Positions 48,904 to 58,058 of a stretch of 64,000 nt of DNA are shown here, piece by piece. A program made the position numbers and the translations under genes. The DNA is taken from NCBI GenBank assembly GCA_021646415.1, contig SOEU01000005.1, forward strand, positions 1-64,000, given 5' to 3'. Origin of the DNA: Candidatus Brocadia sp. Lineage in GTDB: Bacteria > Planctomycetota > Brocadiia > Brocadiales > Brocadiaceae. Every line of letters begins with the position of its first letter. Positions within the stretch are counted from its first letter, which is position 1. The notes beneath the pieces are model-generated. The model was not told the origin of the DNA. It ran no database searches and worked only from the letters and a program-made list of their open reading frames with translations.

Positions 48904-49527
48904 TTATTGATTGTTATTCTTTCCTTGCAGTTTAAGCCCGACTTCGGCGAGCCTGCGCCCTAAAGCGCGGCATATTATAGCCTCATGCTGGTCAATTTCC
49001 CGTTGGCTGTCCGGTCCTGCAACATGACCGGGTCCATATGGAGAACCTCCGGCTTGAGTCGTAAAAAGCTCTTTAACCGAGTAAGGTACACCAACGAGTA
49101 TCATACCGAGGTGCAAGAGAGGGGCCATCAAGGTAAGTATCGTCGTCTCCTGCCCTCCGTGAAGGCTTGCCGTAGACACAAAGACGCCGGCAGGTTTGCC
49201 TTCAAGTTCACCTGCGAGCCACAACGATGTAAGTTGGTCAACCTGGTTTTTTAATTGCGCTGATACATTTCCAAACCTTGTTGGTGTGCCAAAAGCTATC
49301 GCTCCTGCTTCTTTGAAGTCATCTTTTGTAACCATCGGAACGTCTTTCTGCATCGTCTTGCCTGCCTTCATATCCTCCCGGGAATCGATGACAGAGGCAG
49401 GTATCAATTCTGGAACTGTACGGATAACTGGTTCCGCACCCTTAACCTCCTTAACCCCTTCTGCCACGAACTTCGCCATCTTGTATACATTGCCGTATGT
49501 GCTATAGTAGACGATTAGTACTTTCAT
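48904..49527 (-). CDS. wrbA: NAD(P)H:quinone oxidoreductase type IV (WrbA)
   Basis: A 207-residue flavodoxin-fold protein. The FMN loop is YYSTYGNVYKMA, followed by GTPTRFGNVSAQ and a TASLHGGQETT segment typical of WrbA. It reduces quinones by two electrons and so protects against semiquinone radicals. It has an AAGGAGG ribosome-binding site, and the pirin and isochorismatase-like genes are its upstream neighbours on the same strand, giving a quinone/oxidative-stress block. Confidence 0.93.
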   Translation of the reverse strand: MKVLIVYYSTYGNVYKMAKFVAEGVKEVKGAEPVIRTVPELIPASVIDSREDMKAGKTMQKDVPMVTKDDFKEAGAIAFGTPTRFGNVSAQLKNQVDQLTSLWLAGELEGKPAGVFVSTASLHGGQETTILTLMAPLLHLGMILVGVPYSVKELFTTQAGGSPYGPGHVAGPDSQREIDQHEAIICRALGRRLAEVGLKLQGKNNNQ

Positions 49528-49602: not shown

Positions 49603-50517
49603 TTAAACTCTCTCGTATTTGACAAATGTGCCATTATGGTACTCTTCAAAAGCGATCCGTAGTTCATCTTCCGTATTCATCACAATAGGACCGTACCATG
49701 CGACTGGTTCACCAATGGGCTTGCCGGATATAAGCAGGAACCTGACTGCATCGTCTTCCGTTGAGACCATCATCTGATCGCCATCTTCAAACAAGACAAG
49801 AGACTCATTGCCTACAAAAGGGTCTCTTTGCATATCGAAATAGTTAACCCCTTCGATCTCATAAGAAAACGGGAGCTTTTCCTTGCAAAAATATCCCTTA
49901 CCTTCGATGACGTACGCAAAAACGGTGTGTCCACGCTTTGTCGGGTGTATGAATTCTGAACGGGCTGGAACGGTTATATCAAGGTATTCCGGGTCGGCGA
50001 TGATGTCCTGAACGGCCCCCTGCTTGCCGCCAACTTTACCGCATATGACCCGCACTTTTGTGCCGTTCTCCAGCATTACATTAGGGATTTGCCCGCTTTT
50101 CACATCCCGATAACGAGGCTCCATCATTTTATGAGATTTAGGTAGATTGGCCCAGAGTTGAAATCCAAACATCATACCATTTGAGTCTCCTTTGGGCATT
50201 TCCTGGTGTATGATCCCGCTTCCCGCGGTCATCCATTGTATATCGCCAGACGTTATAATGCCCTTATTCCCCATGCTGTCACCATGCTCAACATCTCCCC
50301 GAAGAACATAGGTGATTGTCTCGATTCCACGATGCGGGTGCCATGGAAAACCCTTGATATAATGCTCTGGATTGTTTGAGCGGAAATCGTCCAGAAGTAA
50401 AAAAGGGTCAAACATCGGAACCTGGCTATATCCAAACGCCCGTTTAAGGTGGACACCAGCCCCTTCGATCGTAGGCTTACTTTTCAGGACTTTGCGGATC
50501 TTTCTCGTTTCAGTCAT
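49603..50517 (-). CDS. Pirin-family bicupin protein
   Basis: 304 residues with the pirin signature in the first cupin: FDPFLLLDDFRSN, then HPHRGIETITYVLRGDVEHGDSMG with the metal-binding His residues, and TAGSGIIHQEMP. Pirins of bacteria act as quercetinase-like oxygenases or redox-sensing regulators. Genomic association with WrbA and an isochorismatase-like hydrolase is common in bacteria. An ACAC-rich strip without strong ribosome-binding site precedes the ATG. Confidence 0.92.
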   Translation of the reverse strand: MTETRKIRKVLKSKPTIEGAGVHLKRAFGYSQVPMFDPFLLLDDFRSNNPEHYIKGFPWHPHRGIETITYVLRGDVEHGDSMGNKGIITSGDIQWMTAGSGIIHQEMPKGDSNGMMFGFQLWANLPKSHKMMEPRYRDVKSGQIPNVMLENGTKVRVICGKVGGKQGAVQDIIADPEYLDITVPARSEFIHPTKRGHTVFAYVIEGKGYFCKEKLPFSYEIEGVNYFDMQRDPFVGNESLVLFEDGDQMMVSTEDDAVRFLLISGKPIGEPVAWYGPIVMNTEDELRIAFEEYHNGTFVKYERV

Positions 50518-50970: not shown

Positions 50971-51597
50971 TTAAGCCTTTTTGTGGCTTTCCATCAACAA
51001 CCGATAATTCGGTATAATATGTTCGCCAAAGAGGTTGGCGTAGTCCAACGCATCGGGGCGATTCCAGGTCTGTTGGAGTTCTCCGATAACCGCAAACGTA
51101 TCGATAGGAATCACACCGGCCTGCATAATACGGGCGATAGTTAAATCGGTTGCCATCTTGCTCCAGTTGCCCGAAGCATCCACAACGGCATACACCTTGT
51201 AACCGGCCTGGACTGCGCATATAGCCGGAAATGCCAGGCAAACACTCGTCAGCGTACCGGTCATCACCACCGTCTTGCGTTTAGTCTCTTCAACAGCCTT
51301 AACGAACATAGGCACGTCCCATGCGTTGATCTGACCCTGACGCGGGACATATTTGACGTGGGGAGCGAATTGCTGGATTTCGGGGATCACCGGGCCGTTC
51401 GGGCCTTCCGGCACGGACGCAGTGGTAATGACGGGAATCTTCAGCATCGTGGCGATTTTGGCCAGGGCAATGACATTGTTGCGCAATTGAGACACAGACA
51501 TGTCTTTGACGAGGTTGAACAGTCCGCTTTGGTGATCAATCAACAGCATAACAACATCGTTGGGATTCATCATGACTTTTTCTTGAGGTGTGCTCAT
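50971..51597 (-). CDS. Isochorismatase-like hydrolase (YcaC type)
   Basis: 208 residues with the cysteine-hydrolase fold. The catalytic Asp is in [11 protein letters not shown] and the nucleophilic Cys in [13 protein letters not shown], with the cis-peptide region before it. [13 protein letters not shown] and the NAWDVPMF segment resemble YcaC, whose substrate is not established. An AGGAGAATTG ribosome-binding site precedes the ATG. It belongs to the same-strand stress block with pirin and WrbA. Confidence 0.88.
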
Positions 51598-51737: not shown

Positions 51738-52307
51738 CTATAAAAGCCGATAGGGATATGCCCGCTTTGTCCACTCGCTCTCAGGATAACCGGCCTGAAG
51801 TTGTTCGTATGCCTCTTTAAGTCCCTTTGGATTTTTCGTATCCTTGTATAAACATACACCTTTCAGGTAAATTGCCTCAGGTGCTGAACTACTTTTAGGA
51901 AAATCAGACAAAATCTTCTCCAAGTTTGAAAGCGACTCTTTGAATGTATTCAAGTCAAAATGAACCTTTGCAATACCCAGCAATAACGAAGGAATCAATT
52001 CTTCGGGAGAAAGAAAACCTACTGTCCTGTGATGTTCTTTGCCTTCCATATCAAGAATTATAAGGGTCGGAGTCCACTTCAGATTAAAATCAGTGGCCAG
52101 GGGTTGAGCATCATAACGGGCACGGAGTGGAATTACCGAGCTATTGATAAATTCAGCAACATTTTTATTTGGATACGAAACTGCATCCATCTGTTGACAA
52201 CCGATTCAGCCTGGATTAAAGAAATCAAGTAGCACAGGTTTTTTCTCTGTTCGTGCCCTTGTCAGGGCCATGTCCATCTGCGTTTCCCATGTAATCTTAT
52301 TTTCCAT
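51738..52307 (-). CDS. Probable selenoprotein: thioredoxin-fold protein with U-x-x-C motif
   Basis: Reading starts at the ATG at 52307, which has a strong AAGGAGG 7 bases upstream. It continues through an in-frame TGA at 52206-52208 (codon 34) to a stop at 51738, 189 residues in all. The surrounding sequence LLDFFNPG-U-IGCQQM is a thioredoxin-family active site with UGA in place of the first cysteine of C-x-x-C. The downstream sequence is colinear with the fold, including TPTLIILD with the cis-Pro, and a TPR-like C-terminal extension. A hairpin (52171-52188) follows the UGA at the spacing of bacterial SECIS elements. Starting at Met40 would remove the first strand and the active site. Confidence 0.75.
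52171..52188 (-). promoter_or_regulatory. SECIS-like hairpin of the thioredoxin-fold selenoprotein
   Basis: In the mRNA, GGAUGC pairs with GUAUCC (one G-U) around the loop AGUUUC. The loop begins 24 bases after the UGA, within the 16-37 range of bacterial SECIS models, and has G at its second base. Confidence 0.55.
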
Positions 52308-52330
52308 AATCTTGCCTCCTTATAGTAAAG

Positions 52331-52681
52331 TTATGGTTCAATAGGATACTCCGCCTTTTTCCATCCATTAACGCCACCACCAAGAACCTTTGCATTCTTG
52401 TACCCTTTTTTTAAGCATACCGCTGCCTGACCGGCAGCACTTGCCTCTTTAGGTCAGCCACAGTAGAAGACGATCTCCTGATCCTTTGATAATGAAGGTA
52501 ATCTTGACTTGAATTCATTCAGAGAAATTCCCCCTTGCAGTTTCATCTGTCTGAACATCGCATCGTCGCAACGTCTGGAAACCTGATAAATTATTGCTAC
52601 GGTAAATTTCTCCGAAAGAAAATGAGTCTTACTGGGAACACAAATAAAAAAAGCCTTACTGCAAAGATATTCTTTAAACAT
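52331..52681 (-). CDS. Probable selenoprotein: rhodanese-domain protein with C-x-U motif
   Basis: The frame contains ISLNEFKSRLPSLSKDQEI then VFYCG-U-PKEASAAG and ends VLGGGVNGWKKAEYPIEP, a single-domain rhodanese. An in-frame TGA lies at 52454-52456 (codon 76), two residues after the active-site cysteine, where relatives of the YCACP-N-E-A type have a second cysteine. A perfect SECIS-like hairpin follows. The ATG at 52681 lies inside a terminator hairpin and the first 25 residues look unlike rhodanese, so the true start is uncertain and the N-terminal helix may have been lost. It ends 23 bases before the thioredoxin-fold gene. Confidence 0.6.
52422..52438 (-). promoter_or_regulatory. SECIS-like hairpin of the rhodanese selenoprotein
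   Basis: In the mRNA, GCUGCC and GGCAGC form a perfect 6-bp stem with loop GGUCA, starting 22 bases after the UGA. The GGUC apical sequence is like that of the E. coli fdhF SECIS. Confidence 0.7.
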
Positions 52682-52697
52682 CTTCGGCAGTAAGGCT
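52646..52697 (-). terminator. Intrinsic terminator of the riboswitch-like leader
   Basis: AGCCTTACTGC pairs perfectly with GCAGTAAGGCT, with inner pairing CGAAGAT/ATCTTT, followed by a run of seven T. It lies between the GEMM-like aptamer and the rhodanese gene, so it is the probable expression platform. Confidence 0.85.
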
Positions 52698-52707
52698 GTC
52701 TTTTCAT

Positions 52708-52725
52708 AAGCCGTTTAAACGGCTT
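52708..52725. repeat. 18-base perfect palindrome in the expression platform
   Basis: AAGCCGTTTAAACGGCTT lies between aptamer and terminator. It could compete with the aptamer's 3' part, which carries the related AGCCGTTAAAC. Confidence 0.6.
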
Positions 52726-52734
52726 AAACTGTTT

Positions 52735-52798
52735 AACGGCTAGCAAGACCCTTTACTTTGCGTCCCCTGATTGCCCAGGGTTTGCCTTTTCGTAACGT
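52735..52798 (-). ncRNA. GEMM-I (c-di-GMP-I)-like riboswitch aptamer
   Basis: On the reverse strand the sequence contains GGCAAACC, a hairpin CCTGG-GCAA-TCAGG and then GGGGACGCAAAG. These are the hallmark elements of the GEMM-I aptamer: the GGCAAACC strand, a GNRA-capped stem, and GGGACGCAAAG(C). It continues AAAGGGTCTTGCTAGCC, similar to the (GG)GYCU...AGCC part of the second stem, though that stem is very short. AACG/CGTT could close the base helix. A downstream terminator supports transcriptional control of the two UGA-containing genes. The short second stem is the main doubt. Confidence 0.55.
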
Positions 52799-52848
52799 TC
52801 TTTTATTACACTACTTCGTAAAAAGTCATTATTTAGAACTGAATATTT

Positions 52849-52877
52849 ATATAACATGCATGATAGCTTATCTCAAG
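52849..52877 (-). promoter_or_regulatory. Putative promoter of the riboswitch-selenoprotein operon
   Basis: On the reverse strand TTGAGA and TATATA are separated by 17 bases. Transcription would start about 45 bases before the aptamer. Confidence 0.45.
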
Positions 52878-56375: not shown

Positions 56376-58058
56376 ATGGTAAATGAAAAAAATCATCTTC
56401 TCATCATAGGTGGTGTGGCGGCTGGAATGAAGGCAGCGGCCAAGGCACGGCGTGAGTCCCCAACGATGAAGATTACCGTCGTAACTGACGAGCAATACAT
56501 TTCCTATGCAGGGTGCGGCATGCCTTATTTTATCGGAAATATCATCAAAGATTCAAAAAAACTCATCCTTCGGGAACCGATATATTTTAAGAACATGCAT
56601 AATATTGATGTCCTTACCAGACATCAGGCAACGGCCATCGACACCAAGTCTAAACAGGTTAAAGTCAAGAACATTGACAAGGGACATACCCTCACATTTC
56701 ATTATGACAAACTTATTATTGCCACGGGGGCACAACCTATTATTCCTCCCTTGCCGGGTATTTCTTTGGGCAATATCTTTACCCTGAGAACCATGAGCGA
56801 TGCGTTAAAGATAAGGGCATGTGTGGATGGAGGAAGCATTAAAAACGCCGTAATTGTAGGTGGCGGGCTTATTGGTCTGGAAATGGTGGAAAATCTGATT
56901 CCCAGAGGTATCAAGGTCACCGTTGTTGAACTCCTCGACCAAATTCTGCCACCGCTGGACAAGGATATGGCATCAATTGTCCAAAAGTACTTAATGGAAA
57001 AAGGTATCGAGATCATCACATCGGATGGTGTAAAGTCCTTTGAGGGAAATGATGGCAATAACGTGACAAAAGTTATTACTGGCAAACGACAGTTGCCTGC
57101 AGACATGGTCATCCTCTCTATCGGCATAAAACCCAATACCAAACTGGCTCAGGAGTCTGGTATAGAGATTGGTACTACACGGGCCATAAAGGTAAATGGG
57201 CGTATGGAGACAAATATTCCCGATGTGTATGCTGTTGGCGATTGCGCCGAAAATATCCATTTGGTAACGGGAAAACCTGCGTGGATTGCGTTAGGTTCTA
57301 CGGCAGCCAAGATGGGACGTGTCGCCGCCATCAATGCAACAGGTGGCTCTGATACCTTTCAAGGTGTTTTGGGTACTTTGATTGTAAAGATTTTTGAATT
57401 GTATGTGGGAAAGGTAGGCCTTTCCGAACGGGAGGCCTTGAAAGAAGGCTTCAAGGTCGAATCAGCTATTGTCCCGGCAGGAGATAAGGCTCATTACTAC
57501 CCTGAGGCAAAGGATATTATTATCAAACTCATTGCCGATAAGACCACGAAAAGACTCCTGGGAGCAGAGATCGTTGGGGAAGGTGTAGTCGATAAACGCA
57601 TTGATATTATTGTTACAGCACTTACTTTTGGCACAACGGTTGACCAAATCTCCAAACTCGACCTGGCCTATGCCCCTCCTTACGCCATGTCCATGGATGC
57701 TATTATTGTTGCTGCCAATGTTTTAGGCAATAAATTATCTGGAAAGACGCAGGGTATCCTTCCCCATGCGGTTGCAGAAAGACTGGATCGGGGCGAGGAT
57801 TTTGTATTGCTTGATGTAAGGACAGAGTTAGAGTATAAGAGCGGCCATATCAAGGGATGTAAACACATTCCGCTGGATAAACTTGCATCACGGGCTCACG
57901 AACTCGACGTCTCCAAGGAAATTATTACTTACTGTCGTGCAGGCCTGCGTGCTGCACAAGCCTATCGCATCTTAAAAAATGCAGGATTCAGCAATGTGAA
58001 GTATATGGATGGCAGCATTCTGGTATGGACGTATGGACTGGAAAAATACTATGGCTAA
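56376..58058 (+). CDS. CoA-disulfide reductase-like flavoprotein with C-terminal rhodanese domain
   Basis: 560 residues. FAD-binding GGVAAGMKAAAKARR at the N-terminus, active cysteine in SYAGCGMPYFIG (about residue 48), NAD-binding VGGGLIGLEMVE and the second FAD motif VYAVGDCAE give a pyridine nucleotide-disulfide oxidoreductase. The rhodanese domain (465-560) carries the active cysteine in ITYCRAGLRA. The architecture is that of CoADR-RHD enzymes, which reduce CoA-disulfide or persulfides. The downstream YkgJ gene overlaps its end. Confidence 0.9.
   Translation: MVNEKNHLLIIGGVAAGMKAAAKARRESPTMKITVVTDEQYISYAGCGMPYFIGNIIKDSKKLILREPIYFKNMHNIDVLTRHQATAIDTKSKQVKVKNIDKGHTLTFHYDKLIIATGAQPIIPPLPGISLGNIFTLRTMSDALKIRACVDGGSIKNAVIVGGGLIGLEMVENLIPRGIKVTVVELLDQILPPLDKDMASIVQKYLMEKGIEIITSDGVKSFEGNDGNNVTKVITGKRQLPADMVILSIGIKPNTKLAQESGIEIGTTRAIKVNGRMETNIPDVYAVGDCAENIHLVTGKPAWIALGSTAAKMGRVAAINATGGSDTFQGVLGTLIVKIFELYVGKVGLSEREALKEGFKVESAIVPAGDKAHYYPEAKDIIIKLIADKTTKRLLGAEIVGEGVVDKRIDIIVTALTFGTTVDQISKLDLAYAPPYAMSMDAIIVAANVLGNKLSGKTQGILPHAVAERLDRGEDFVLLDVRTELEYKSGHIKGCKHIPLDKLASRAHELDVSKEIITYCRAGLRAAQAYRILKNAGFSNVKYMDGSILVWTYGLEKYYG

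Follow-up and report, generated by a model that had tools for sequence, protein, structure and literature searches.

The window analysed in this study covers the first 64 kb (64,000 nucleotides) of contig 5. The genome (G000), from a Candidatus Brocadia, has 3.81 Mb in 42 contigs; its nearest matches among public sequences are Candidatus Brocadia MAGs, in agreement with the Brocadiales assumed in the first-pass annotation. On the minus strand, a promoter-like block is followed by a riboswitch aptamer, an intrinsic terminator that overlaps it, the frame of a rhodanese and that of a thioredoxin with a TPR-like tail. Each of the two frames contains one in-frame UGA, and a gap of 23 bases separates them. 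The two frames, the two UGAs, the gap, the aptamer and the terminator lie where the first-pass annotation of this DNA had placed them. The sequence comparisons support the prediction of two tandem selenoprotein genes that follow a riboswitch of GEMM-I type and its terminator, an arrangement conserved in Brocadia. Comparison with relatives, which the annotation had proposed as a check, was only partly in favor of it: the aptamer and both UGAs recur in Brocadia, but the rhodanese was decayed or lost in several genomes.

The second gene of the pair (51738..52307, minus strand) encodes a predicted Sec-thioredoxin of 189 aa. Its thioredoxin domain matched Thioredoxin_2 (PF13098, E 9e-12) with 45.7 bits against a gathering score of 27, and DsbD matches showed likeness to DsbD-gamma; the C-terminal TPR-like region matched TPR_6 slightly under the cut-off. 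No signal peptide was evident in the sequence. A Shine-Dalgarno sequence AAGGAGG (52315..52321, minus strand) precedes the gene and is conserved in orthologues. The UGA is codon 34 (52206..52208, minus strand), within a UIGC motif. It was present in every orthologue read, including four loci of Desulfobulbaceae/Deltaproteobacteria (L061-L064), and the order-wide search showed one internal UGA in the thioredoxin orthologues and in nearly all remoter relatives. So the in-frame UGA of the redox site is conserved and coding continues past it, with dN/dS against the window of 0.09-0.20 (Nei-Gojobori). A SECIS-like hairpin with loop AGUUUC (52171..52188, minus strand) was paired in 100% of cells among 10 sequences, where changes were one-sided only (GC/GU-type), with no two-sided covariation. 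The thioredoxin is clearly the intact gene of the pair, and it is intact throughout. A second Sec-thioredoxin-TPR gene, 38% identical and with one UGA, was found on another contig of this genome (G000:C4:135440-135982). AlphaFold models of both proteins of the pair had mean pLDDT of 39 and 61, a confidence too low for use.

The rhodanese frame runs from 52681 to 52331 on the minus strand, and its UGA is codon 76 (52454..52456) in the motif YC-G-U. Each Brocadiaceae locus that has the Sec form carries this UGA, while L038 and L040-L042 have Cys there; in the homologues at L036, L039 and L045 a UGA stands at the Cys position as well as at the Sec position (UxU). The first-pass annotation had put a UGA at both active sites, which holds for the thioredoxin, whereas the rhodanese UGA lies two residues past the Cys of the catalytic loop (CxU). 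The SECIS-like hairpin of the rhodanese, with loop GGUCA (52421..52439, minus strand), showed two-sided changes at 3 pairs among 18 sequences, with 92% of cells paired. For this gene, conservation of the in-frame UGA, the presence of homologues with Cys and covariation in the SECIS-like hairpin all agree with a selenoprotein. Its dN/dS against the window, over the last 74 codons, was 0.04-0.26 (Nei-Gojobori), with the value of 0.04 for L054.

Only the part from the first in-frame ATG of the conserved region to the stop (52331..52558, minus strand; PF00581, E 8.9e-9) is homologous to the rhodaneses of relatives. The open frame ahead of it (52559..52681, minus strand), which starts from the terminator stem, is mostly non-homologous and probably not a natural N-terminus. 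The N-terminus of the relatives reads M(A/T)EPxRITPxE...TTLLVCAY; here about 27 N-terminal residues, the start codon and the ribosome site have been swapped for unrelated sequence, and the listed ATG falls inside the terminator stem and is not the ancestral start. No full-length second copy that could be the source of the replacing sequence was found in the genome. Other Brocadia show damage as well: a TAA and substitutions in the frame at L034 and L057, loss of the 5' part with the riboswitch about 1 kb away at L029 and L058, and no rhodanese detected beside the thioredoxin at L056. Since the C-terminal part is still conserved, the damage in the window is probably recent. The nearest relative of this part (52331-52555) is L054 (dN 0.023), whereas that of the thioredoxin is L027 (dN 0.026), a split for which recombination is a possible explanation.

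The genome has the tRNA-Sec with anticodon UCA, SelA, and a SelD that carries a UGA of its own. In a comparison with synonymous recodings, the thioredoxin hairpin in the window was more stable than about 99% of them and the rhodanese hairpin more stable than about 95%. This comparison gives weaker results in some relatives, and low scores were obtained even for two Cys homologues of G+C-rich genomes; we therefore take it as supporting evidence only. Taken with the conservation of the UGAs, the purifying selection across them, the downstream hairpins and the Sec genes, both UGAs appear to be genuine selenocysteine codons. No SelB above cut-off was detected in G000, whose assembly is 99.96% complete in 42 contigs. 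SelB was present in 23 of the 33 family genomes, and five genomes without it (G182, G228, G088, G267 and G400) also lack the thioredoxin, with a Cys rhodanese in G088. It fits with a linked loss of SelB and thioredoxin, to which G000 is an exception. The gene order in G049 is trpF-selA-selB-accA; in G000 no selB was found beside selA or accA, which are on separate contigs. The missing SelB may reflect either an assembly gap or a true loss.

Three other readings of the selenoprotein pair were weighed against these data. Ordinary stops in two pseudogenes would agree with the missing SelB and the damaged 5' end of the rhodanese. However, the UGA is aligned in all close orthologues, including those of another phylum, purifying selection (dN/dS mostly about 0.1 in both frames) spans it, hairpins follow both UGAs, and tRNA-Sec, SelA and the Sec-SelD are retained; the two UGAs are not there by chance, in agreement with the annotation, which had called independent nonsense mutations improbable. 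We regard this reading as very improbable, and for the thioredoxin it is largely refuted. It is also quite unlikely, in our estimate, that the strain lost SelB and that the locus is a recent relic no longer making selenoproteins. The completeness of the assembly and the rearranged neighborhood of selA speak for it, but selA, selC and the Sec-selD are kept, the thioredoxin is intact and conserved, and selB is separate from selA in G206 and G122 too, so that it may fall in a gap among the 42 contigs. The third reading is that the rhodanese is still functional in this strain through an alternative start, since its frame remains open from the terminator onward, its C-terminal part is strongly constrained relative to L054 and its SECIS-like hairpin is kept. 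We consider it doubtful, because this strain lacks the start codon, the ribosome site and the first strand that relatives have, and the frame is damaged or undetected in the congeners listed above. The intact two-enzyme relay envisaged by the first-pass annotation is not supported in this strain, and selenocysteine decoding of an intact thioredoxin next to a 5'-truncated rhodanese is the reading we follow below.

Upstream of the genes, a putative sigma-70-like promoter block, TTGAGA-17 nt-TATATA (52848..52876, minus strand), lies about 50 nt ahead of the aptamer. What the annotation had claimed as a promoter is thus a promoter-like block, which is visible in the alignment of orthologous loci (L023, L025, L027, L028, L034 and L054) but was not reported by the consensus scanner. 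The aptamer (52682..52795, minus strand) is of the c-di-GMP-I (GEMM-I) type, as had been noticed from the sequence, with an RF03167 match of 59.6 bits (E 1.5e-11) that is barely above the gathering score of 59, and the same aptamer precedes the orthologues of these genes in other Brocadia. The intrinsic terminator (52646..52697, minus strand; AGCCUUACUGC...GCAGUAAGGCU-U6) has a stem of 11 bp followed by a T-run, which bears out the earlier call. The fold of the leader had z = -6.7 against shuffles. The 11-nt 5' arm of the terminator, AGCCUUACUGC, sits within the 3' part of the aptamer, so the two structures overlap and are mutually exclusive, which is the design of an ON switch; from this layout we infer the direction of switching. 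The same ON mechanism by exclusion between aptamer and terminator has been described for the Geobacter pilM riboswitch, a cGAMP riboswitch of the GEMM-Ib type (PMC9262584).

The ligand is best predicted to be c-di-GMP rather than cGAMP. The pocket bases, which we take to be G20, A47 and C92 in the numbering of the Vc2 structure, are of this type in the window and in 30 of 30 genomic copies read by eye. Riboswitches of the cGAMP-type GEMM-Ib have A at position 20, while G is found here. Among the GGDEF domains of the genome, all 11 that could be aligned have Asp or Asn at the position where Hypr enzymes have Ser (PMC6456294); a 12th GGDEF match, L155, is outside the alignment. The pocket bases together with the lack of a Hypr-type Ser in the aligned domains favor c-di-GMP. 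On the other side, the best Rfam family of the clan for this aptamer, RF03167, is the c-di-GMP-I-GGC variant, and large GEMM-I regulons for cGAMP are known in Geobacter (PMC6456294, PMC8835794), so the switch might sense cGAMP or another ligand. But the Rfam GGC consensus GACGCGAAG differs from GACGCAAAG in the window, with G against A at the equivalent of A47 by our reading of the consensus, and all 30 genomic copies share the A of the window. With G at position 20 and with GGDEF domains of this kind, a ligand other than c-di-GMP is unlikely.

The riboswitch is far from being a single element in this genome. There were 44 matches, 28 of them above the gathering score, and the overlapping terminator of ON type was present in 30 of 30 copies read. 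Every Brocadia genome searched had 22-58 copies and other genera of the family had 1-28, while 0 matches were found in 14 control genomes. The dedicated control of the selenoprotein genes that the first-pass annotation suggested is therefore not retained; with about 44 near-identical copies of its switch spread over the genome, the operon forms a single branch of a large regulon, of c-di-GMP if the predicted ligand is right. Behind the copies there are genes for a cytochrome c', a cytochrome P460-type protein, a rubredoxin, a YHS protein and a perchlorate-reductase-like molybdopterin subunit, and further a polysaccharide gene, sigma-54 regulators, proteases, a caspase-domain protein and others; the target was taken as the nearest sizeable frame behind each copy, so some assignments may be wrong. 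We tentatively speculate, at somewhat less than even chance, that c-di-GMP is a global regulator in Brocadia that acts through 22-58 near-identical ON riboswitches per genome and links life in aggregates with selenium-dependent thiol defence, with cytochromes, with a perchlorate-reductase-like enzyme and with genes for polysaccharides and proteases.

Some single copies can be described further. The copy at G000:C18:4772-4881 (L126) lies ahead of an alpha subunit of the type II DMSO-reductase family, whose closest PDB match is perchlorate reductase (5e7o, E 1.7e-137). Four copies occur within about 9 kb on contig 38 (G000:C38, at 1377, 5443, 7587 and 9807), and there is a close pair at C1:165046 and 166390. 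In the P3 region of the copies (L116-L144), the loops carry palindromes that vary and fall into several types; some of these resemble interspersed repeats.

Downstream of the pair on the minus strand there are a YcaC-like hydrolase of the isochorismatase family (50971..51597; PF00857, with NF041461 at 213.5 bits below its cut-off of 310), a pirin-like protein (49603..50517; PF02678/PF05726) and a WrbA-type NAD(P)H:quinone oxidoreductase (48904..49527; NF002999/TIGR01755 above cut-off). Genes for pirin, YcaC-like, WrbA or FMN-reductase proteins lie near the thioredoxin in nearly all Brocadiaceae loci: the pirin in most relatives, the isochorismatase-family member in several, and the WrbA-type gene in L053, L054 and L060. 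The downstream gene order differs between species, and the deltaproteobacterial loci have other neighbors, which by eye resemble small heat-shock and Lon-type proteins. This recurrent redox neighborhood suggests a role of the thioredoxin in redox-stress defence more than in a dedicated persulfide relay. Of the thiol/persulfide relay proposed earlier, the partnership between rhodanese and thioredoxin is still plausible by analogy, because TsoB joins both domain types, while a dedicated relay is the less favored role.

We think it likely that a c-di-GMP-responsive ON riboswitch controls this short selenoprotein operon. When no ligand is bound, the terminator hairpin would form, with a piece of the aptamer as its 5' arm, and transcription would stop; bound c-di-GMP would hold the aptamer together and block the terminator, and RNA polymerase would continue. 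Two products would have been encoded on the mRNA, a Sec-rhodanese (CxU) and the TPR-tailed Sec-thioredoxin (UxxC), with each UGA presumably decoded with the SECIS-like hairpin directly downstream. Since neither the start nor the first strand of the rhodanese is left in this strain, the Sec-thioredoxin is probably the one working product. It would act as a DsbD-gamma-like thiol/selenol reductase, and its likely role would be to reduce disulfides, persulfides or peroxides at high c-di-GMP, in granule or biofilm life.

Every part of the locus is of a known kind, as both the selenoprotein families and the riboswitch class have been described, and rhodanese CxU and thioredoxin UxxC selenoproteins are already in reviews (PMC13188914, PMC9312934). 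The leader resembles c-di-GMP-I riboswitches (GEMM-I, RF01051/RF03167) in aptamer architecture, in pocket bases (by our numbering) and in its terminator-type expression platform. It differs in that about 44 near-identical ON copies occur in the Brocadia genome against 17 in G. sulfurreducens (PMC8835794), and in that one of them is predicted to control selenoprotein genes. It differs from the pilM riboswitch by G at position 20 and in that no Hypr cyclase signature was found in this genome, which makes c-di-GMP likelier. The rhodanese shares the CxU motif with the rhodanese-like selenoprotein form 3 (NF041203), a model matched by 14 of 14 aligned homologues, but the N-terminally truncated window protein reaches 58.5 bits against a cut-off of 115. 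The thioredoxin shares fold family and UxxC motif with the thiol:disulfide interchange selenoproteins of PF13098, from which it differs by its short length, its TPR-like tail and the lack of an evident signal peptide, and it reached no NCBIfam cut-off. TsoB (NF045694), a rhodanese/DsbD fusion selenoprotein, has both domain types in one chain, whereas they are separate genes in the window and match different parts of TsoB weakly (44.4 and 20.1 bits, far below the cut-off of 805).

A literature search on anammox riboswitches, Brocadia selenoproteins and c-di-GMP-controlled selenoproteins, with most subscription journals outside its scope, found nothing on point. The combination of riboswitch and selenoprotein genes, and the riboswitch family in anammox bacteria, may therefore be new, and control of selenoprotein genes by a second-messenger riboswitch would be new as far as we know. 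For anammox bacteria, which are not yet in pure culture, a riboswitch family of at least 40 copies gives a readable map of possible c-di-GMP control. Granule formation is central to anammox water treatment, and its link to redox defence becomes directly testable.

Two other features were noticed in the window. About 4 kb from the pair, on the plus strand (56376-58058), there is a pyridine nucleotide-disulphide oxidoreductase fused to a rhodanese domain. On the minus strand, 13864-13819 matches the Acido-Lenti-1 RNA (RF01687) with 42.4 bits.
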